Shown: piece by piece, positions 356-12,564 of the stretch
Layout: each line of letters opens with the position of its first letter
How positions within the stretch are numbered: the stretch's first letter is position 1
NCBI GenBank assembly: GCA_016432265.1
Contig: CP066681.1
Span: 248,001 to 312,000 of the forward strand
DNA length: 64,000 nt
Direction of reading: 5' to 3'
Origin: Micavibrio aeruginosavorus
GTDB taxonomy: Bacteria; Pseudomonadota; Alphaproteobacteria; Micavibrionales; Micavibrionaceae
Made by a program: the position numbers and the translations under genes
Notes under the pieces: model-generated
Databases searched by the model: none
Seen by the model: the letters and a program-made list of their open reading frames with translations, nothing else
Told to the model about the DNA's origin: nothing

Positions 356-3300
356 ATGGCCTTTTTCCATTTTGAGATAGACGCAAGCGCCACTTACAGC
401 CTGACCGCGCCCACTCTTGAGGTGCTGGTTGACGGGATTGTCGTATCGTCGGCCCAAATCACCGAACATACGGGATCTGGCCTCGATTATTTGCGCTTCG
501 AGCTTGAATATAGCGGTACATACCCGGGCACTTTGCAATTTCGTTTTAATGATGGCGGCGAGGGCGGACGCAACATTGTGATCGATGCCGTTCGTGTAAA
601 CGGCTGGCTGGTCGATACAACCTATATTTCGATGATGACGCTGTTGAACGGCCAGACATCTTCCGTATCCACAGCGGCGGTTGATCACCTATTTGGACGC
701 ACACCACCTGTACTGGGGGATCTTCCGGCGGAAACGATGACTGGTACAACAGGCGATGATCGCCTGATAGGCGGTTCACAGCCTGAAATTATCAATGCCG
801 GTAACGGCGCTGATCGTGTGCGCGGGCGTGACGATAGTGACGCCGTTTTTGGCGGCGGTGGCAATGACACGATTTATGGCGGCGGTGGCAACGACATTGT
901 CGTGGCTGATGATGGCGATGACTTCCTGTACGGAGAGGCAGGCAACGATCTGCTCCATGGCGGCGACGGCAATGATGTCATCAACGGCGGTCTTGGTCAC
1001 GATCTTCTAAATGGCGGTCTTGGCGCGGATTATCTGATCGGCGAAGGCGGCGATGACATTCTCTATGGCGAGGACGGGAACGATACGCTGAATGGCGGGG
1101 CGGGCAATGATTTCTTGATGGGGGACGGCGGTGCCGACATCGTCTTCGGCGGCGCAGGTAACGATACAGTTTACGGAGGCCTGGATCAGGACGAGCTTTA
1201 TGGCGGGGCGGGCGATGATGTTATGTACGGTGAGGGCGGGGACGATCTCATCTTCGGCGGGGCGGGTGGCGATTCCCTGTACGGCAATAACGGTGTCGAT
1301 AACATTGCAGGAGGCTTGGGAAACGATATTATCGAGGGCAATGATGGCGATGATACTGTCAACGGTGATGCCGGGAATGACACAATTGACGGCGGGGCGG
1401 GCAACGACACTCTGGACGGCGGCGCCGACAACGACACGCTGACCTATACAACCGCATCCTCGGCGATTACGGTTTCGCTCGCGGTGTCCGGCGCACAGAC
1501 CACAGGCGGGGCGGGAACAGATGTTATTGTAAATTTTGAAAACCTAACAGGATCCGACTATAACGACAAACTGACGGGCAGCGGCGGTGCCAACACCATC
1601 GTCGCCGGATTGGGTGATGATATCGTCGAGGGTGGTGCCGGTAACGACACGCTGCAAGGCGGCGGGGGTACGGATACACTGGTTTATACATCGGCGTCGG
1701 CAGCGGTTAATGTCAACCTTCTGACCGGGGCGGTAACGGGGGGTGCCGGCAGCGATGCCGTATCGCAATTCGAAAACGTTCTCGGTTCATCATATAACGA
1801 CACGCTTACAGGGGATGGCGGCAATAACATCCTGTCCGGCGCCGCCGGTAGCGACACGTTAAACGGAGACGACGGGAACGACACGTTGTATGCCGTCTCT
1901 ACCGGGGTTACTGTATTCTCTACAAACTTTAACAGCGGCACTGAAAGCTTCACATACGCCGATAATACCTTCGGCGGAACAGGCGGGGCCTACGTATCCG
2001 GTTCGCGCAATACTGCCGACGGCGTAAACGGCAACGGTTGTCTGGAGGTTTTTTTCGACGGCACTAACGCTACCGCCCAAGGCACCATGTCAGGGGCGCA
2101 TACAAGAAGTTTCACGGTTTCGCAGGAGGTGGCCGAGGCTGTAGCGACATTCCAGTATAAGGTGATTCGCGCGGGTACTTATGAAACTAACGAGGACACC
2201 TATGTTTATGTGGAGGTTGATGGCGTTAAATTCGGCTTGAACAGCAACAACTATATTACCCGCATGGAAAGCGATGGTGGCGACCCGACATACGATACTG
2301 GCTGGCGCAGCGTTACCTTGAATCTGGGAACGCTGGCACAGGGAAACCATACGATTTCTCTGGGTGGTTTGGTTGAGGGCAAGGATAACGCCAACGAAGA
2401 TTCGACAATCCGGTTTGATAATATTTATATCGGGACGGCGGTCGTCACCGATGATGCTTACAGCAACGCGTTGAACGGCGGTAACGGCACCGATACATTA
2501 TATGGCAGCGCCGGCACCGATAGCTTGAACGGGGGAGCGGGCGATGACATTCTCTACTCGGCTTCTGTCGCCAGCGTGACATCGGCCTCGATATTGGCGG
2601 CCTACTCCGGCGTTGCTTATAACGCCACAACAAACAGCTTTTACCGTTATGTCACAACCACCAGAACGTGGGAGGCCGCAAACAGCGCAGCGACCGCAGA
2701 TCTTATTAACGGGGTCAGCGGCCATCTGGCGCACTCAAATTCCGCAACAGAGAATAGTTATCTGGATACGCTGTCAGGCTCGTCAAACATATGGCTGGGA
2801 GGCTCCGATGGTGCCGTGAATGGTGAGTGGCGCTGGATCGGCGGCCCTAACGATGGCACACAGTTCTGGCAAGGGCAAAGCGGGGGCAGTGCTGTGGGGG
2901 GTGCCTACACCAACTGGAACACGAATGAACCGAACGACTACAACGGCTTCGAGGCTAACATCGAGATGTATAACGGAGGGCGATGGAATGATCAGTTGCC
3001 AGGGACGACCCGCGCCTATGTTGTCGAGTGGGAAGCCAGCCAGATTCTTGTAACCGGGAATACGACAACCTTAGCCGGGGGCGATGGGCTTGACACACTA
3101 TATGGCGGCGCAGGGGCCGATATTTTCCTGTTCGAAGCCGCTAACGCCTATAACGATACAGACGCGATAAATGGATTTGACTACGTAGACGGCGACAAAC
3201 TTGATCTATCCGACCTTCTCTCGGGGTATGATTCCCTCACCGAAAATCTCGCTGATTTTGTCATGGTGAGCGATGGCACGGCGACTGACAGTTATATGGC

Positions 3301-4117
3301 GGCCATGAAAAACTACGACGCTTTGCTTTATTACCGCTTGGGCGAGACATCCGGCGGCACGGCGGCTGATACCATGGGCGTGTTGAACGGTTCCTATATC
3401 AACACGCCGACCCTGAATGTCGCGGATTTCAATGGCGGGTTGAGCAATAACGCGGTCGAATTTAACGGCACGAACGAATATGTCCGTATCAACGATAACG
3501 CTGTTTTCGACCTCGGGGCGGCGACGTTTATGGCATGGTTCCGTTCTGATACCAATTCAGCAACCCAACAAACCGTAATGTCCAAAGATGGTTCCAGCGG
3601 CGGACAGTTCCAGATTGGCGTCACCACTGATGACGGGGATATTGTCGGCCTGTTGCAGAACGGTGGCGGCGCTGCGATCAATTTCGATATTGATCAAAGC
3701 GTGGCGCTCAATACCTGGTATCATCTGGCGATCAGCTTCAGCACCAGCAGCGGCGTTGAAGTATACCTGAATGGATCGTCGATTTACACGAACGCGTCTT
3801 TTACCACGGCGCTGGGCTCGAATTACGACTTCCTGATAGGGGCTGAGAACCGGGGAGGCAATAACACGGTGTCGCGTTACTTCAATGGTCGGATCGATGA
3901 GGTGACTGTTTTCAATTACAAAATGGGCGACCAGACGATCGCCAATATTTACAATGCCGGCGTGAACGCAACCGATGGAGCTGTTGCTGACGGGGTTTAT
4001 GTCGACATGGCTGGAACCGGTGATTTCGATTCAGGCAGCCGAATCGCGGATTTTACCGGCTCAACCGCGGTATTAAACACGCTGGATATGCTGTCTGGCG
4101 GATATATTGTGACATAA
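356..4117 (+). CDS. Giant RTX surface/secreted protein with C-type lectin-like and LamG-like domains
   Basis: A 1253-residue protein without a Sec signal peptide, as expected for a type I secretion substrate. Order of parts: an N-terminal beta-rich domain (about 1-120) shared with the RTX protein at 4876, reminiscent of calcium-dependent xylan-binding modules; dense GGxGxDxxx repeats (about 131-361) and shorter repeat blocks later; a beta-sandwich-like region (about 515-700); a C-type lectin-like domain (about 745-895) with the EPN and WND signatures; a LamG/concanavalin-like domain (about 984-1203); and a short C-terminal tail. Acidic RTX repeats bind calcium and fold after export. The two sugar-binding-type folds suggest an adhesin for glycans or other cells. 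No T1SS ABC or membrane-fusion gene is in the window. The start at 356 is chosen because it aligns with the start of the paralogue. Function is inferred from domains. Confidence 0.9.
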   Translation: MAFFHFEIDASATYSLTAPTLEVLVDGIVVSSAQITEHTGSGLDYLRFELEYSGTYPGTLQFRFNDGGEGGRNIVIDAVRVNGWLVDTTYISMMTLLNGQTSSVSTAAVDHLFGRTPPVLGDLPAETMTGTTGDDRLIGGSQPEIINAGNGADRVRGRDDSDAVFGGGGNDTIYGGGGNDIVVADDGDDFLYGEAGNDLLHGGDGNDVINGGLGHDLLNGGLGADYLIGEGGDDILYGEDGNDTLNGGAGNDFLMGDGGADIVFGGAGNDTVYGGLDQDELYGGAGDDVMYGEGGDDLIFGGAGGDSLYGNNGVDNIAGGLGNDIIEGNDGDDTVNGDAGNDTIDGGAGNDTLDGGADNDTLTYTTASSAITVSLAVSGAQTTGGAGTDVIVNFENLTGSDYNDKLTGSGGANTIVAGLGDDIVEGGAGNDTLQGGGGTDTLVYTSASAAVNVNLLTGAVTGGAGSDAVSQFENVLGSSYNDTLTGDGGNNILSGAAGSDTLNGDDGNDTLYAVSTGVTVFSTNFNSGTESFTYADNTFGGTGGAYVSGSRNTADGVNGNGCLEVFFDGTNATAQGTMSGAHTRSFTVSQEVAEAVATFQYKVIRAGTYETNEDTYVYVEVDGVKFGLNSNNYITRMESDGGDPTYDTGWRSVTLNLGTLAQGNHTISLGGLVEGKDNANEDSTIRFDNIYIGTAVVTDDAYSNALNGGNGTDTLYGSAGTDSLNGGAGDDILYSASVASVTSASILAAYSGVAYNATTNSFYRYVTTTRTWEAANSAATADLINGVSGHLAHSNSATENSYLDTLSGSSNIWLGGSDGAVNGEWRWIGGPNDGTQFWQGQSGGSAVGGAYTNWNTNEPNDYNGFEANIEMYNGGRWNDQLPGTTRAYVVEWEASQILVTGNTTTLAGGDGLDTLYGGAGADIFLFEAANAYNDTDAINGFDYVDGDKLDLSDLLSGYDSLTENLADFVMVSDGTATDSYMAAMKNYDALLYYRLGETSGGTAADTMGVLNGSYINTPTLNVADFNGGLSNNAVEFNGTNEYVRINDNAVFDLGAATFMAWFRSDTNSATQQTVMSKDGSSGGQFQIGVTTDDGDIVGLLQNGGGAAINFDIDQSVALNTWYHLAISFSTSSGVEVYLNGSSIYTNASFTTALGSNYDFLIGAENRGGNNTVSRYFNGRIDEVTVFNYKMGDQTIANIYNAGVNATDGAVADGVYVDMAGTGDFDSGSRIADFTGSTAVLNTLDMLSGGYIVT
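746..1440 (+). repeat. RTX nonapeptide repeat block
   Basis: About 230 residues of near-continuous GGxGxDxLx-type nonapeptides, seen in DNA as recurring ggcggcgatgg / ggcaacgata motifs. These are calcium-binding beta-roll repeats of the surrounding gene. They are translated in one frame and have no spacer structure, so they are not a CRISPR array. Confidence 0.9.
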
Positions 4118-4734: not shown

Positions 4735-4875
4735 CTTATGTAAATATAAAGTTGCAGCAGTGCCTGAGGTATTAAGGCACCGCCCGTTAACCATTTATTT
4801 TCCGGATGTATGAAATAATTAAAAAGAGGTCGGTGAAGGCCTCGGGTGTTTATTCACGGGAAACAACAAGGACAA

Positions 4876-7800
4876 ATGGCACATTTTATTTTCGAGATTG
4901 AAGCCAGCGCTTCCTATATCACCGATGCTCCCGTGCTTGAGGTGCTGGTTGACGGCTCTGTCGTGTCATCTGCATCCGTGACGGGTGTGACCGGATTTGG
5001 AACATCAAGTCTTTATTTCGAACTGGAATATAGCGGCACCGCCCCGACATCGCTGCAATTCCGCTTCAATGATGCCTCAGGCGAGGGTGGGCGACAGGTT
5101 ACGATCAACAATGTCAAGATCAGCGGTTGGTCTGTTGATACGACCTACATTTCGGTGATGACGCTTTCCCAGGGCAACAGCGCAAACATAAACATTGCAG
5201 GCACGGATCATCTTTATGGCCGCCAGGCTCCCGTGACGGGCGATGTGGGCGCTGTGACGGACAGCGGCAGCAGCAGCGGCGACTATATCAAGGTCGATAG
5301 TGGCGGTGCAGGCGTTGTCGAGGCGGGCGATGGCGACGATCGCGTGCGCGGCGCGGATGACGATGATGCGCTTTTTGGTGATGGCGGCGCCGATGTTCTT
5401 TATGGCGGTGCGGGCAACGATATTATCGTAGGTGGCCTCGGCAACGACAATTTGTATGGCGAGGCGGGCGATGACCTCCTGCATGGGGGCAACGATATCG
5501 ACATTCTGAATGGCGGTGCGGGCAACGATTTGCTCAACGGCGGCGCAGGGGCTGATATGCTCATGGGAGGGGATGGCAACGACATTTCCTACGGCGAGGC
5601 GGGCAACGACACAATATCGGCAGGCGCAGGAAACGATATCGCCTATGGTGACGGCGGGGATGACATCCTCAGCGGCGGGATCGGAAACGATACCCTCTAT
5701 GGCGGCGCCGACGCCGACAAATTATACGGCGAGGCGGGCGATGACCTGTTGTACGGCGAAGACGGAAACGACCAGATTTATGGCGGGCTGGGGAGCGACA
5801 CGGTTGATGGCGGTGCGGGCGACGATCTCCTGCAGGGTGGCGCTGGTGCCGATATCCTGAACGGTGGCAATGACAACGACACAATAAACGGTGGCGCAGG
5901 GAACGATACGATTGACGGCGGCGCGGGCACTGATGTGGCTATCCTTACGGGCACCTGGGCCAGCTATGCCATCAGCCTGGCCGGAAGCACTTATACTCTG
6001 GTGCATGCGACCGATGGGACTGACAATGTAACGGCGGTTGAGAATTTCCAGTTTTCCAATGGAACCGTGGCTGTTGCCAGCCTTCTTAATGTGGCCCCTA
6101 CGGGAGCGAACGCCACTTTGACGGGGGCGGAAGATACCGATCTGGTGCTGGCAGCCGGCAATTTCGGTTTCAGTGACGCAAACGCGCTGGACGCCCTGAG
6201 TGCCGTCAGAATCGACAGTTTGCCAGCCGCCGGAACCTTACGCTTGAGCGGCGTGGCGGTTACCGCCGGGCAAGTAGTTAGCGTCAGCGATATCAATGTC
6301 GGTAACCTGACCTTCCAGCCGGCCTCGGGAGCCTCCGGCTCGCCTTATGCCAACTTTACATTCTCCGTGCGCGATCTTGGCGGGCTTTACGACGCCGCGC
6401 CCAACACCATTACGATCAACGTGACGGCTGTCAATGATACGCCGACGATCACATCAAACGGCGGCGGGTCGTCAGCTTCTATCAGCATCGGCGAAAATGG
6501 CACGGCCGTTACGATAGTCACGGCGACCGACCCTGATATTCCCACGACCCTGACATACTCTATTGCCGGTGGCGCCGATGCTGCTCGTTTTGCCATCGAT
6601 TCGGCGACCGGTGTGCTGACTTTCCTTACAGCGCCTAATTACGAAAGCCCGACCGATAACGGCGCGGACAATATATATGATGTTATTGTTCAGGTCTCCG
6701 ACGGATCTTTGACGGATACGCAAACCCTGGCGGTCACCGTTACGAATGTCAACGAAACGCCGACGATCACATCGAATGGTGGCGGAGCAACTGCATCCGT
6801 CACGATCAACGAGAACGGCGCCATTGTCACAACGGTTGCCGCCACCGATCCAGATGCTTCGACGACGTTGACCTACTCAATCTCCGGCGGGGCGGATTCC
6901 AGCCTCTTTGTCATTGATTCGGTTACGGGCGTTCTGGCTTTCATATTGGCGCCGGATTATGAAGTCCCGGCTGATTCAGGCAATGACAACGTATACGATG
7001 TGACTGTGACGGCCAGCGATGGCAGCCTGAGCGACAGCCAGAATATATCGGTCGTGATATCGGACGTATCCGAAGGCGATGTGGGCAACACGACCGGCAC
7101 GGCCGGCACAGTTGCGGTGGGCGGCGTAGTGGCGGGCACTGTCGATACGGCCGGGGATCGCGACTGGTTCCAGGTAAACCTGACCGCCGGCACAAAATAC
7201 GCCATCTGGGCGCGCGGCACGCCAACGGAAGCCGGCACGATGACCGACCCGCGCATTCACTCCATCCGCAATTCGGCGGGCACTTCCGTCAACTCAGGCG
7301 ATGATGACGGTGGCGTCGGGTATGACTCTTTACTTTATTATACCCCTACAACAACAGGCACTTATTATATCGAGATGGGGGCCTATGGCGCGACCCAGAC
7401 GGGAACATATACGCTGAATGTCTTTGTCGGCGGCAATACTTATACCGGCAGTAGCGGCGGGAATACCCTGACAGGCACTGCTAACGCTGACTACCTTGAC
7501 GGGCAGGGTGGGGCCGACACATTGAACGGCGGCGATGGCAGCGATATTCTCGATGGTGGATCGGGGAACGATATTCTGGTTGGCGGTAACGGCGCCGATG
7601 TCCTTCTGGGCGGTTCGAATGCGGATACATTCCGTTTCACGGCGACGGACGCCGTCGATCAGATTGTCGACTACACGACAGCGCAGAGCGACGTTCTTGA
7701 TATTGCCAACATCTTGACCGGGTTCACCGCCGGTGTCAGTGATATTGACGATTTCGTGCAGTTCCAGACGGTCGATGGCGATACGGTCATGAGGGTGGAT

Positions 7801-7911
7801 GCGGATGGTACAGCCAACGGGGCCAACTTTGTACAGGTTGCCACCTTGCTGGGTACGACGGGCCTCACCGTGCAGACGCTCTACGACAGCAGCTTGATCG
7901 ACGCGACATAG
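4876..7911 (+). CDS. Large RTX protein with cadherin-like repeats and PPC domain
   Basis: 1011 residues from the ATG at 4876, which has AAGGA about five bases upstream; an in-frame GTG at 4846 would add ten residues but does not match the paralogue. Order: an N-terminal beta domain (1-115) clearly related to that of the RTX protein at 356; RTX repeats (about 140-350); a VCBS/cadherin-like stretch with three tandem beta modules, two of which begin TPTITSNGGG; a bacterial pre-peptidase C-terminal (PPC) domain with the signature DRDWFQVNLTAG; a short second RTX block; and a C-terminal region like those of large type I-secreted adhesins, which carries the export signal. The likely role is an exported, calcium-stiffened adhesin. 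It lacks the lectin and LamG modules of its neighbour, so the two probably bind different targets. Confidence 0.9.
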   Translation: MAHFIFEIEASASYITDAPVLEVLVDGSVVSSASVTGVTGFGTSSLYFELEYSGTAPTSLQFRFNDASGEGGRQVTINNVKISGWSVDTTYISVMTLSQGNSANINIAGTDHLYGRQAPVTGDVGAVTDSGSSSGDYIKVDSGGAGVVEAGDGDDRVRGADDDDALFGDGGADVLYGGAGNDIIVGGLGNDNLYGEAGDDLLHGGNDIDILNGGAGNDLLNGGAGADMLMGGDGNDISYGEAGNDTISAGAGNDIAYGDGGDDILSGGIGNDTLYGGADADKLYGEAGDDLLYGEDGNDQIYGGLGSDTVDGGAGDDLLQGGAGADILNGGNDNDTINGGAGNDTIDGGAGTDVAILTGTWASYAISLAGSTYTLVHATDGTDNVTAVENFQFSNGTVAVASLLNVAPTGANATLTGAEDTDLVLAAGNFGFSDANALDALSAVRIDSLPAAGTLRLSGVAVTAGQVVSVSDINVGNLTFQPASGASGSPYANFTFSVRDLGGLYDAAPNTITINVTAVNDTPTITSNGGGSSASISIGENGTAVTIVTATDPDIPTTLTYSIAGGADAARFAIDSATGVLTFLTAPNYESPTDNGADNIYDVIVQVSDGSLTDTQTLAVTVTNVNETPTITSNGGGATASVTINENGAIVTTVAATDPDASTTLTYSISGGADSSLFVIDSVTGVLAFILAPDYEVPADSGNDNVYDVTVTASDGSLSDSQNISVVISDVSEGDVGNTTGTAGTVAVGGVVAGTVDTAGDRDWFQVNLTAGTKYAIWARGTPTEAGTMTDPRIHSIRNSAGTSVNSGDDDGGVGYDSLLYYTPTTTGTYYIEMGAYGATQTGTYTLNVFVGGNTYTGSSGGNTLTGTANADYLDGQGGADTLNGGDGSDILDGGSGNDILVGGNGADVLLGGSNADTFRFTATDAVDQIVDYTTAQSDVLDIANILTGFTAGVSDIDDFVQFQTVDGDTVMRVDADGTANGANFVQVATLLGTTGLTVQTLYDSSLIDAT
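5290..5935 (+). repeat. RTX nonapeptide repeat block
   Basis: Around 23 consecutive GGxGxDxLY-type nonapeptides encoding a calcium-binding beta-roll inside the second RTX gene. A shorter block of the same type recurs near the 3' end, at about 7440-7620. Confidence 0.9.
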
Positions 7912-8422
7912 CGGCGATAATTCTTTGGCCATAGCGCATTTATTTTAACAACGTCACGTGTAGCGATTATTGCGGAAATGGCGATTGCTCTAAGAGTTAC
8001 AGCTATCTCATCCGTTGAGTGTGGTGTCAGTAAGGAGTATCCTTGGCCCCCTTTTAGGGCGCACCTGAAATTCGTATATCTAGGCGATTGATTTATAAAG
8101 AGATGGTGGACCTGAAGGGGGATTTGGCGAAAAGCGCTATAGAGGATCTCCGTGATTGGGATGAAACCCTTAGAGTCTCAGGCTTTTCAGCATTTCACCG
8201 TAAAAGCGCGAATATCCCTCATTCCGAATACTCCCCAATAAAAACAAAACATTAAACCACCCGAAGGGGAGAGAATAACTATACTGTACTAGGTTAGTAA
8301 TATACGTCCCTTATTCAAAGCTAATTTAACAATGATAGACAAAGCAGGAAGTGAGTGAGTTACCTTTTGTTCCAACTCATGCTAAGTCAAGGTAATTGTG
8401 AAAATTATTTTGAGTAATAGTC
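7912..8422. other. Gene-poor junction between RTX genes and AT-rich element
   Basis: About 500 bases without a convincing gene. Composition shifts from GC-rich on the left to AT-rich on the right, so the left end of the integrative element probably lies here. At 8104-8111 the octamer TGGTGGAC repeats the terminal bases of the tRNA-Ala at 12489-12496, and the similarity continues with gaps for about nine bases. A 50-codon open frame begins at 8103. No promoter or terminator could be assigned with confidence. Confidence 0.5.
8103..8255 (+). CDS. Possible small protein or gene remnant
   Basis: A 50-codon frame in the junction region, too short to be sure of. It is charged, with a probable amphipathic helix near its start (MVDLKGDLAKSAIEDL), and is preceded by AAAGAG directly before the ATG, a poor spacing. 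The frame stays open for about 15 codons upstream of the ATG, so it may be the tail of a degraded gene. It is not recognised, and it overlaps the suspected attachment site. Confidence 0.2.
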   Translation: MVDLKGDLAKSAIEDLRDWDETLRVSGFSAFHRKSANIPHSEYSPIKTKH

Positions 8423-9169
8423 ATGCCTCGTAGAAACAGCATTGTTAAGAACTACTATTTAGAAGCAGATGACGGGAGAGGGTCTATATGGACGATTTGG
8501 CTATCTCCCGCTCTTACTGGATTTAATGATGTTTACTTCGCCGGTAGTGGTTACCGACGACCCAATAGTAATAATGAAGGGTTTCTTTTTCATTTAAGCC
8601 ACCATAAAGATGGACGCTCTCACATAAAGAACAGTGATGAAAAAATTCACAAGTTCCGATTAACCAATCAGAATAATTTTCCGATCTGCTCAGTTTATGC
8701 TCACAGTAAAGACCTTCTTGTTCCTTTGGAAATACCGGAGAATATTAAAGGTGAAATAATCCCTGTAGATATTCGTCTGAAAGATAATCCTGATTCTTAT
8801 GAATGGTGTGAGTTATTCTTTGCACATTTTGAGATATCAAAAACCGAATCATTTCTCAGGAAATACACAGGAAAAGAATACGAGTTTAATGTTGTTGATC
8901 AGATTGATATAGGCCAAGGAAAAGAGATACTTGTACTTTTTCGCTTTGTAAGATCAGTCGCGACCTCAGGAAAGATACCTAATCTTAGCAAAGAAGTGAC
9001 CTACAGTAATAGAAATCGATTGACGGTATGGGGCTTTCGCTGCAGTAACGAGAAACATGTTACCATCCACGATCTTGCTGCTAACAAGATAGATAGAATT
9101 TCTCAGCTCTACAGAAAAAGCTTGTTGTTGCGGGCATTGATGTCGTCGGCAAGCTATCTAGGTTTTTAG
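8423..9169 (+). CDS. Unrecognised protein in the integrative element
   Basis: 248 residues, AT-rich codon use unlike the flanking RTX genes, no signal peptide or membrane segment. The sequence mixes beta-prone and charged stretches (for example LFFAHFEI and ILVLFRFVRS) and ends in a helical segment. It has no family signature that I recognise. Neighbours are a truncated patatin-like phospholipase on the other strand and recombinase genes, so it is cargo of the element. A role in phage defence would fit many such elements but is not shown by the sequence. Confidence 0.6.
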   Translation: MPRRNSIVKNYYLEADDGRGSIWTIWLSPALTGFNDVYFAGSGYRRPNSNNEGFLFHLSHHKDGRSHIKNSDEKIHKFRLTNQNNFPICSVYAHSKDLLVPLEIPENIKGEIIPVDIRLKDNPDSYEWCELFFAHFEISKTESFLRKYTGKEYEFNVVDQIDIGQGKEILVLFRFVRSVATSGKIPNLSKEVTYSNRNRLTVWGFRCSNEKHVTIHDLAANKIDRISQLYRKSLLLRALMSSASYLGF

Positions 9170-9213: not shown

Positions 9214-9777
9214 TTATCCATCATTGCAGGGACTATATCTATCTGTTGGCGCGTAAAGAAACATATCTTTTAAGACTCTTCCGTGCTGCATGGCTTTCAT
9301 ATCGGCATGGTTTGGTAGTACGGTTGATGCATGGCGATAATTGTCCATCTTGATACCCTGAAATTCATCATCGGGGTCAATACGGATAATGTTATGCTTG
9401 CCAATAAGTAAACCTGCCTGACCTAATGCATTCTGAGACTGCAGGTTCATAGCAGCAAAAATTATATCGTACCAGCAAAGCTGACCACCAAGAGTTTTTT
9501 GGAGCCATGAAACAGAATAAGGATCGCTTCCGCAACCTATACTCAGTATTCGGATATTGTCCCTAGGTACATTATAACAAGCCAGAGTATCAACAAGACC
9601 GATCATGATCGGATTGTTTGCCCATACACCACCATCCACAAATGTGTATCCTTTGTGGACGTGTGGACGCAAAAAAGTGGGGGCGGCGCTTGTCGCCATG
9701 CCAATAGTGACCATCTCTTCGAGATGATCTTGTGTATAGTCTGGATGATGATTGGTTTTATAGATGAATAAATAGAT
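9214..9777 (-). pseudogene. Patatin-like phospholipase, N-terminal half missing
   Basis: The readable frame starts directly after an in-frame stop at 9780-9778 and contains the C-terminal half of a patatin fold: YKTNHHPDYTQD, then ATSAAPTF, then DGGVWANNP with the catalytic Asp of the Ser-Asp dyad. The oxyanion GxGxxG and nucleophile GxSxG motifs that should lie upstream are absent, so the protein cannot be an active lipase. The first ATG in frame (9714) would give 166 residues. The break coincides with one arm of an inverted repeat at 9778-9826, which suggests a rearrangement or small insertion. Similar patatins act as effectors (CapV) in CBASS anti-phage systems; no cyclase is seen nearby. 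Confidence 0.75.
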
Positions 9778-9826
9778 CTAAACTGTACAGAAATCTTATA
9801 TAACAGTGATTTTCTGTACAGTTTAG
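9778..9826. repeat. Inverted repeat at the patatin break point
   Basis: The left arm CTAAACTGTACAGAAATC (9778-9795) pairs with the right arm 9808-9826, whose complement differs only by one extra A, across a 12-base AT-rich spacer. The left arm supplies the stop codon that ends the patatin frame. It could be the remnant of a small inverted-repeat element, or a palindromic operator for the genes that follow at 9887. Confidence 0.8.
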
Positions 9827-9886
9827 TAGAGAGACTTATCTTTAAAATCCAAATACTTTCCTTCTGTAATGATGCTTGAGGAGAGT

Positions 9887-10063
9887 ATGGCGGGATCTGA
9901 CACTGATATTTCTAGTAAAGATATAATCGAGGGTGCTTTGCGCTCTCTGATTAAGATGGTTATGAATCAGCACTGCGAAGGTAAGTTCAGTCCTTTACTA
10001 CAAAAACCATCTCCCCTGCATCCTATAATAGTAACTAAGGATAAAGGAAATGAGAATGACTGA
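9887..10063 (+). CDS. Small unrecognised protein in the element
   Basis: 58 residues from the ATG at 9887, preceded by GAGGAG; upstream ATGs at 9869 and 9872 lack a ribosome-binding sequence. The N-terminal half is helical (KDIIEGALRSLIKMVMNQ), the rest Pro/Lys-rich and probably disordered. The end overlaps the next gene by 8 bases, so the two are likely co-translated. It is AT-rich like the rest of the element. Small regulators and DNA-binding accessory proteins occur at this position in integrative elements, but no such motif is visible. Confidence 0.45.
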   Translation: MAGSDTDISSKDIIEGALRSLIKMVMNQHCEGKFSPLLQKPSPLHPIIVTKDKGNEND

Positions 10064-10487: not shown

Positions 10488-10535
10488 ATTAAATCAGTGC
10501 GTTAAAAGAAATTCTTACGGTAATTACGGAAAATA

Positions 10536-10564
10536 AAGGGGATAATCACTTTGTCCCCTTTTTT
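10536..10564 (+). terminator. Rho-independent terminator
   Basis: AAGGGGA at 10536-10542 pairs with TCCCCTT at 10554-10560 across an 11-base loop and is followed by a run of six T. It ends the two-gene unit before the recombinase genes. Confidence 0.7.
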
Positions 10565-10583
10565 CTTACCGTGAGGAAATTCT

Positions 10584-10982
10584 ATGAAGGCACTGATTTA
10601 TACGCGTGTAATGCCCGACAACAAAAAGGTTGCGAGACCTGATCGACTGCAAGAGCAGGAGAAGCGTTGCCGGGACTTCTTACGCGATAACCGAATTACA
10701 CCTGTCCGTACATATTCAGATCAAGGGGTGATGCACCCGCAGCGATTTCTTCCTGGTATGAGATCACTGTTGCAGCACCTCGCCAGAAGTTCTGAGGAAA
10801 TGTTGGTGATCTGCGATCATCCGGGCAGGTTGGGATTAAAAAGCGATATTCAAAAAGCTGTGACGGCTCAGATCGAAGATCTGGGAGGGCGCATTATTAC
10901 CGTGATGGGAACGGCAGAACAATATCGCGCAAGCTATAGCACTGTTGAAAATATATTGGTGAGATTGGAGAAAACCAAATGA
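10584..10982 (+). CDS. Resolvase-domain protein lacking the catalytic serine
   Basis: 132 residues made only of a serine-recombinase N-terminal domain. The start MKALIYTRVMPDNK aligns with the family signature YxRVSS, but the catalytic serine is methionine. Of the conserved arginine pair in DRLGR only the second is kept (DHPGR). It therefore should not cut DNA. It precedes a complete large serine recombinase and overlaps it by 4 bases (ATGA), so the two are translationally coupled. It may act as a dimerisation or directionality partner of the active recombinase, or be a decayed copy; its intact frame and good coupling favour function. This role is inferred. Confidence 0.7.
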   Translation: MKALIYTRVMPDNKKVARPDRLQEQEKRCRDFLRDNRITPVRTYSDQGVMHPQRFLPGMRSLLQHLARSSEEMLVICDHPGRLGLKSDIQKAVTAQIEDLGGRIITVMGTAEQYRASYSTVENILVRLEKTK

Positions 10983-12553
10983 CTATTCGTAACACTCAAG
11001 ATGCCGTTCTGTATGCGCGTGTATCCTCGATTAAACAGGTTGAGCAAGGAAATGGCTTAGATAGTCAAATTCATCGCTGCCGGAAATATGCTGATAATAA
11101 TGGATACAGAGTCCTGAAAGAATTCAGGGATGAAGGCATAACTGGCAGTCGTGCTGACCGTAAAGAAATCATGGCTGTCGTGAATTTCATAGAAGCGCAT
11201 GAAGCCCCCGTGACTGTCATTATGGATGATGTCACGAGATTAGGCAGGGATATGGTTGTTTACTTCACGCTTAAGGAAGAAATTGAGGCACTGGGCGGAA
11301 AAGTTGTATTCCTTACACAGAAGTTTGATAAATCACCAAGTGGCAAATTTGTTGAGAATATTATGGTAGCCTGCGGTGAGTTTGAGCGCCTGAATAATAA
11401 AGAACGTGTGATCGGGCGTATGGCAGCAAGGGTTGAAAGTGGCCTGTGGCCTTACGGCTTGTTTCAAGCCTATAAGCCAACGCAAACTCCCGGTATAAGA
11501 GAGCCATACGAACCAGCGGCAAGCGTCATTCGTCAGGCGTTAGAGGGTTATGCGTATGGAAGCCTCACAAGTTATGAGGACGTGGCTCGTTTTATTAACA
11601 GTCACAAACTCCTGAACTATAAGGGAAGGCCGATTATCTATAACGGCGATAAAGCAAAAGACTTACTGGATAGTGCTTGGTATCAGGCAGGGTTTGTTCA
11701 GCTTCCTAAAAGAAACGTTCCGCGCCGTCTTGGCCTGCATAAACCAATAATCTCAGGTAGTGTCCTTGAGCTTATAGAACTGCGTATGTCCGGTAAGGCC
11801 GTGCCTAAGTACCGCAAGAACATGAATCAAAACTTCCCTCTAAAAGGACATGTTTTATGCGATTCATGCAATAAGCCAATGACGGCATCATTCTGTGGTC
11901 ATGGTGACAAGTACGGATATTACTACTGCCGGACGGGTGGTTGCGAACTAAACAGCAAGCATGTTGCCCATCATGTTGTGCATGACCAATTCCTGAGCCT
12001 CTTACAGTCAGCAACACCTAAGCAAGAGCTGGTTGATTTGGCACGAACCATTCTTAAAGATGTCTGGAATCAGCAGTGGGAAGCGTTTCAGCATGATCGA
12101 CATGAATGGGGAATGGAGGCCAGTAAGCTCGATGAGGAAATACGTTCCTGCGTTGATGAGTTAAGGAAGACAAATATCCCTGCTATCCGAGAGGCGATCA
12201 CTGAGAGGATTCAAGAGTTCTCTGAGAGAAGGGAAGTTTTGCGTAAAAAGATCCATGACTTTAAAGAGCTCCGCAATGACTTCGGAGACGTATTGGATCG
12301 GGTGGTAGGGGTCATTGAGCAGCCACATACGTTCTGGACTGAGGGAGATCTGTCAGCGAAGCAAATGATACAAAGGCTGGTTTTTCCAAAACCGCTGATT
12401 TTCGATCAAAAGGCCAAAAAATTTCGAAAACCGGAGAAGGCGCTTGTTTACAGGCTTTTTGAGAAACTAAACCCTAAAAAACAGGGTTTGGTGGACTCGA
12501 ACGGGATCGAACCGTCGACCTTCGCAATGCCATTGCGACGCTCTCCCAGCTGA
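10979..12553 (+). CDS. Large serine recombinase (site-specific integrase of the element)
   Basis: 524 residues. Residues about 6-150 form the resolvase catalytic domain with YARVSS (nucleophile Ser) and TRLGRD. Then follow the recombinase DNA-binding domain, a zinc beta-ribbon (CDSCNKP with later paired cysteines) and a C-terminal coiled coil, the standard order in phage and ICE integrases of this class. The enzyme joins attP and attB through a covalent phosphoserine intermediate. The last 20 or so codons run into tRNA-Ala on the other strand, and the stop TGA (12551-12553) lies inside the tRNA D-arm, so the present C terminus is host-derived. It is coupled to the catalytically dead resolvase-like gene upstream. 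Confidence 0.9.
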   Translation: MTIRNTQDAVLYARVSSIKQVEQGNGLDSQIHRCRKYADNNGYRVLKEFRDEGITGSRADRKEIMAVVNFIEAHEAPVTVIMDDVTRLGRDMVVYFTLKEEIEALGGKVVFLTQKFDKSPSGKFVENIMVACGEFERLNNKERVIGRMAARVESGLWPYGLFQAYKPTQTPGIREPYEPAASVIRQALEGYAYGSLTSYEDVARFINSHKLLNYKGRPIIYNGDKAKDLLDSAWYQAGFVQLPKRNVPRRLGLHKPIISGSVLELIELRMSGKAVPKYRKNMNQNFPLKGHVLCDSCNKPMTASFCGHGDKYGYYYCRTGGCELNSKHVAHHVVHDQFLSLLQSATPKQELVDLARTILKDVWNQQWEAFQHDRHEWGMEASKLDEEIRSCVDELRKTNIPAIREAITERIQEFSERREVLRKKIHDFKELRNDFGDVLDRVVGVIEQPHTFWTEGDLSAKQMIQRLVFPKPLIFDQKAKKFRKPEKALVYRLFEKLNPKKQGLVDSNGIEPSTFAMPLRRSPS

Positions 12554-12564
12554 GCTACGAGCCC
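12489..12564 (-). tRNA. tRNA-Ala (anticodon GGC)
   Basis: 76 nt read on the minus strand. The acceptor GGGCTCG pairs with CGAGTCC (one G-T), the D-stem is GCTC/GAGC, the anticodon stem TCGCA/TGCGA closes loop ATGGCAT with anticodon GGC, and the T-arm contains TTCGATC. CCA is encoded. It decodes GCC. Its 3' end is the insertion site of the neighbouring element and was restored on integration, so the tRNA looks intact. Confidence 0.97.

Follow-up and report, generated by a model that had tools for sequence, protein, structure and literature searches.

A catalytically dead serine-recombinase domain encoded immediately before the large serine recombinase of a tRNA-Ala element in Micavibrio aeruginosavorus

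To our knowledge, the switch of serine integrases between integration and excision is understood only for a few unrelated recombination directionality factors (RDFs). CcrA of the staphylococcal cassette chromosomes is itself a full-size recombinase, and the target of the Ccr system is rlmH. CcrA and CcrB are two co-transcribed proteins of the serine-recombinase family, and CcrA has been reported as being needed together with CcrB for integration and for attB-specific excision (Wang and Archer 2010, as cited in PMC3146451). The same source proposes that DsiA works with DsiB in the ssrA islands of Dehalococcoides. DsiA is described there as a PinR-like protein of ~200 amino acids, a small serine-recombinase catalytic-domain protein without a DNA-binding motif that is encoded in a putative operon, and the 3' end of the large serine recombinase (LSR) gene reads into the RNA target gene, which encodes tmRNA. 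Taken together, the two systems as presented in PMC3146451 demonstrate or hint that an LSR can operate alongside a second protein of the serine-recombinase type. The RDFs gp3 of phiC31 and gp47 of Bxb1 are small proteins that are encoded by their elements and regulate an LSR through contact; they are not recombinase-like. The descriptions in PMC3783163 and PMC5814800 place the action of known RDFs, as proposed or shown, at the C-terminal zinc/coiled-coil region of the LSR and not at the catalytic domain.

The window, the whole 64-kb stretch of DNA that was analysed, comes from a replicon of Micavibrio aeruginosavorus that is a single contig of 2.46 Mb. It contains two adjacent co-oriented genes of the serine-recombinase family (Table 1), an arrangement that it shares with the Ccr pairs. 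The family score differs, since the CcrB model gives 67 bits against a cutoff of 900 and the partner is a single domain that is not full-size. The partner also differs from CcrA in having 132 residues, in having no nucleophile and in belonging to an element that targets tRNA-Ala. The small catalytic-domain protein and the LSR that reads into an RNA gene resemble DsiA and DsiB, whereas the length, the PinR-likeness and the tmRNA target are different, as far as the published description allows the two to be compared. Narrow term searches of the open-access literature returned no description of a dead, domain-only LSR partner. Such a partner provisionally appears to be new, while the paired architecture is known from CcrA/CcrB and DsiA/DsiB. 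If true, control of a serine integrase by an inactive catalytic domain that naturally accompanies the LSR would be without precedent in kind, and, if the domain is a modulator, it would be a ready-made regulator for LSR-based tools.

Table 1. Features of the locus in window coordinates; positions preceded by a locus handle refer to that locus.
Feature	Position	Strand	Basis
Candidate left end, core GATGGTGGAC, common to the tRNA-Ala 3' end	8103..8112	.	10 bases match G001 beside the tRNA; precise edge inferred
Cargo ORF of 248 aa without a family match	8423..9169	+	profile searches
CBASS-type patatin phospholipase remnant (C-terminal part)	9214..9714	-	PADLOC effector, E 5e-44; covers profile positions 159-323 of 331; N-terminal part missing
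Perfect 16-nt inverted repeat CTAAACTGTACAGAAA, upstream of small ORFs; possible operator	9778..9826	.	repeat search
Short ORF, 64 aa, overlaps ORF A	9869..10063	+	without match to the small pre-LSR protein family
ORF A, 145 aa	10050..10487	+	G060 and G025 have an ORF of comparable length immediately upstream of their hairpins
Long RNA hairpin that begins just past the ORF A stop, reaches codon 6 of the dead gene and takes in its Shine-Dalgarno region	10490..10600	+	dG -51.3, z -9.3
Intrinsic-terminator-like stem with U run, at the hairpin tip	10535..10570	+	terminator prediction
Catalytically dead serine-recombinase catalytic-domain protein, 132 aa	10584..10982	+	profiles, PDB matches, AlphaFold, residue alignment
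ATGA in which the stop of the dead gene overlaps the LSR start	10979..10982	+	sequence; same in G060
LSR, 524 aa; C-terminal codons inside the tRNA-Ala gene	10979..12553	+	ORF list, profile searches, alignment
Candidate right end, core TTGGTGGAC, at the tRNA 3' end	12488..12496	.	comparison with G001 and shared core
Integration target tRNA-Ala (GGC)	12489..12564	-	tRNA gene call and comparison with the empty site in G001
Slot-protein examples	L069:1133-1468; L061:4738-5124(-); L056:14461-14682(-)		survey of 48 LSR loci

The element inserts at tRNA-Ala through its own LSR. The empty site is present in G001, a genome of the same genus, where the homology on the left stops at ~7890 and restarts at 12489, and where about 45 bases separate the gene from the tRNA. 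The core occurs at 8103 and at 12488 and is common to the tRNA 3' end, so by this comparison the element is about 4.4 kb long and is seated in the 3' end of tRNA-Ala, with an inferred left edge. The ~190 bases to the left of the core at 8103 are likewise absent from G001. The dead gene and the LSR gene are the terminal genes of the element and are located at the tRNA end, and the LSR ORF terminates inside the tRNA-Ala gene of the opposite strand (shared stretch 12489-12553). Related LSRs likewise sit in tRNA genes (Ala, Arg and Tyr). C-termini that are read from the antisense strand of a tRNA are found in the window LSR and also in L054, L055, L056, L057, L058, L061, L062 and L217. Two large tandem RTX-type calcium-binding repeat proteins, at 356-4117 and 4846-7911 of the window, adjoin the integration site; their N-termini are related and the pair is conserved in G001.

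The 132-aa protein is a genuine stand-alone homologue of the serine-recombinase catalytic domain, as judged from sequence comparison and structure prediction. Its match to PF00239 is weak (E 9e-4, below the Pfam gathering score), and it scores strongly, at 48.8 bits, with a profile built from the catalytic domains of related LSRs, a score that 0 of 2000 shuffles reach. The PDB sequence match is the TnpX catalytic domain (E 6e-4). The AlphaFold model has a pLDDT of 82 and its top PDB matches are serine-recombinase catalytic domains; the alignment behind the model included LSR domains, which helped the model. Helix E is short and badly predicted, with a pLDDT of about 50 past residue 110. Alignment with 43 LSR domains determined that Tyr6, Arg8, Val9, Gln25, Asp78 and Arg82 are still present, whereas the nucleophile Ser is replaced by Met10 and a Gln by Lys15. 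The Arg61 equivalent in the 'RP' motif is Leu56, the RLxR motif keeps its first Arg as Arg82 while the second, the Arg90 equivalent, is Leu85, and the helix-E Arg is absent. The protein falls outside the active enzymes, which carry the catalytic Ser and the active-site Arg set. None of the 43 aligned LSR domains has lost the nucleophile. In the serine recombinase mechanism, loss of the nucleophile by itself precludes the normal cleavage reaction, and normal cleavage by the dead protein is therefore ruled out.

The downstream LSR features intact catalytic residues, a zinc ribbon and a long C-terminal part (phrog_95, E 2e-56); PF13408 also matches it, but under its cutoff. Alignment with related LSRs revealed that it retains Ser, Gln20, Arg61, Arg87, Arg90 and Arg137, of which the first five are each 100% kept in the 43 aligned domains and Arg137 is kept in 93%. 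An earlier sequence-only reading of this DNA had described a small protein with an open frame, the YTRV fold signature and Met in place of Ser, overlapping an active large serine recombinase by 4 bases. The coordinates, the frames and the ATGA at 10979-10982 are all exact, Tyr6, Arg8 and Val9 are retained with Met10 at the nucleophile position, and the LSR is of the active type with an intact frame. The reading had also counted one of two active-site Arg residues as lost, which is correct for Leu85 beside the retained Arg82, but it understated the loss, which extends to Leu56 and the absent helix-E Arg.

A survey for the same pair, which that reading had proposed as a check, found it in a second genus and revealed a further case that is probably independent. 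The genome G060, from a different genus of the same family, encodes a 129-aa homologue in which Ser is replaced by Asn and which overlaps its LSR by the same ATGA. The two proteins are 30% identical, have DHxGRLG and LPxxRSL in common, and cluster apart from 62 LSRs in a tree (support 97/96), with very long branches. In G465, from another alphaproteobacterial family, a 160-aa domain with Ala at the nucleophile position and Glu in place of the helix-E Arg sits between a conserved small protein and the LSR, adjacent to the LSR. This domain is 47% identical to the domain of its own LSR and 48% identical to another LSR; on the basis of these identities it most likely arose separately from the Micavibrio type. 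All three dead proteins have lost Ser, the Gln20 equivalent, both loop Gly residues and the helix-E Arg, and all three keep the Tyr, Arg14, Val, Gln30, Cys34, Asp83 and Arg87 equivalents.

There is no dead gene in G025, where the LSR is intact and 38% identical, or in G015, where the LSR is 50% identical and residues ~150-378 are deleted internally. The dead gene is therefore optional in the clade. Frameshifted or missing homologues in closely related elements had been named beforehand as evidence against a function; the homologue is indeed missing from G025 and G015, whereas no frameshifted homologue was found. Searches that covered 142 genomes from the order and 385 from the class yielded no Micavibrio-type dead proteins beyond the two, and a search of plasmids, phages and genome contigs gave no further homologues of the dead gene. 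Viral contigs gave 3 hits, and the one examined more closely, L232, proved to be a normal recombinase that retains Ser. A Ser to Ala candidate, L089 (G126), was not counted, its neighbouring recombinase being on the opposite strand. In L055, the G015 locus, a DUF3631 protein (256-1581) overlaps the internally deleted LSR.

The slot before related LSRs is usually occupied by a different protein. Of 48 related LSR loci, counted without redundancy, 39 have a small conserved protein whose end falls directly in front of the LSR start or within it, and a partner coupled before the LSR is thus the rule, although its identity is variable. The slot protein has ~75-150 aa and the consensus mkpDiekYlpmlddfdlteeqKiElietLWqImesFVDlgfGihPvQ, it is unrelated to the dead domain, and its LSR neighbours are tRNA-targeting and alphaproteobacterial. 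The members tested had no match in Pfam, NCBIfam or PHROGs. The slot protein is a candidate RDF or accessory factor for the LSR. It is lacking in 9 of the 48 loci, which include all four clade members (the window, G060, G025 and G015). The 64-aa ORF of the window was compared with this family as a candidate member and gave no match.

The start of the dead gene is covered by a long hairpin with a predicted energy of -51.3 kcal/mol (z -9.3), and 0 of 200 and 0 of 500 shuffles are equally stable. At the corresponding position G060 has a hairpin whose sequence is unrelated; it pairs the Shine-Dalgarno region and the AUG (z -4.7) and lacks a U run at its tip. In G025 the hairpin is again unrelated in sequence, and here the outer arm is paired to the opening codons of the LSR gene (z -3.6). 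The energy in each of these three loci beats 500 of 500 shuffles; the end-to-end pair count is less extreme and is reached by 16, 1 and 5 of 500 shuffles in the window, G060 and G025, respectively. Ranking of hairpins over the 800 bases upstream of 48 LSRs placed G060 and the window first and second and G025 sixth, and the same scan revealed strong hairpins elsewhere, in L119, L116 and L026. In the window, G060 and G025 alike, the stem bridges two genes: it sets out at the stop codon of the ORF before it and reaches the start region of the gene that follows. This position would fit translational gating in which ribosomes terminating on ORF A open the stem. A ribosome at the end of ORF A would open the outer 11 pairs in the window, with the ribosome-binding region still partly paired.

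The leading reading, to which we give an even chance, makes the dead domain an accessory subunit that acts on the LSR through contact, in one direction or another, and that is made under translational control of the hairpin. The dead gene would be translated from the same message immediately before the LSR, and its product, having neither catalysis nor a DNA-binding part, would keep the fold through which serine recombinases pair and synapse. LSR dimers, as described in PMC3783163, assemble through the catalytic domains and helix E, so a free dead domain could enter or cap such assemblies. By associating with LSR subunits or capping them, it may restrict or skew synapsis and strand exchange while cleaving no DNA itself. 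The hairpin over the ribosome-binding site and first codons probably holds down synthesis of the dead protein and, via the ATGA overlap, probably that of the LSR too, and ribosomes completing ORF A would ease the block. We infer the protein contact, the effect on recombination and the translational gating. The earlier sequence-only reading had suggested heterodimers that could set the direction of integration or dampen activity, and it is supported in part: a catalytically dead partner acting on the LSR would fit the open frame, the derived losses and the ATGA in two genera, the G465 case and the fold kept in the model. The hairpin, the tRNA target, the ends of the element and the slot protein go beyond that reading. 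The coupled slot protein of most related loci, the hairpins in three loci and the precedents of CcrA/CcrB and DsiA/DsiB also speak for an accessory subunit. However, there are clade members without the dead gene, the genomes of the order and class yielded just the two Micavibrio-type proteins, and known RDFs act, as proposed or shown, on the C-terminal zinc/coiled-coil region of the LSR. Helix E, moreover, belongs to the known dimer interface, and in the dead protein it is short with a poor prediction.

The broken cargo (the patatin remnant), the absence of the gene from G025 and G015 and the moderate divergence of the G465 copy from its own LSR are compatible with an inert protein, left by a partial duplication of the catalytic domain during decay of the element. 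The direct passage of the frame into the LSR by ATGA would also suit a mere leader that carries ribosomes to the LSR start. A relic or leader of this kind is rather unlikely, because the reading frame has stayed open and the residues of the fold persist across genera at 30% identity, because derived features are common to two genera, and because 130 conserved codons are needless for a plain leader. The precedent of CcrA and DsiA, the slot protein in 39 of 48 loci and the lack of any other recognised RDF candidate within the element would also suit an obligate second subunit, an RDF-like factor on a recombinase fold that alters att-site choice or direction as CcrA does with CcrB. This is improbable, since G025 and G015 lack the gene and the dead protein has no DNA-binding part; additionally, the slot protein and the dead domain occur together in G465, so neither simply replaces the other. 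The hairpin has an alternative of its own that is compatible with any of these readings of the protein: instead of an RNA switch, the palindrome at 10490-10600 could be a simple terminator or a site in the DNA (res-like or a transfer origin) that has no bearing on dead-gene expression. The tip in the window is a good intrinsic terminator, however, the stop-to-start stems with unrelated sequences in three loci and the G060 tip without a U run make this explanation rather unlikely.

ORF A of the window was considered as a third resolvase domain and rejected (hhalign P 0.4; 160 of 2000 shuffles were as good), and its AlphaFold model has a pLDDT of 42. The G025 copy gave no resolvase signal with hhalign. 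The G060 ORF A matches the resolvase domain with an hhalign probability of 64% (P 7e-5), and its score exceeds all but four of the decoy fragments; HMMER scores identify three of these four as parts of recombinases. On these profile comparisons, the G060 ORF A is probably a further degenerate resolvase domain. There is a small chance that the locus is a regulatory array in which as many as three proteins have the resolvase fold, one of them active and two dead; ORF A would be a far-degenerated copy, the start-codon hairpin would gate synthesis and the dead copies would set the extent and direction of LSR activity. Upstream of the G060 recombinase genes, L053 (4774-9093) encodes a 1439-aa P-loop protein that is NACHT/AVS-like by eye and is possibly defence cargo.
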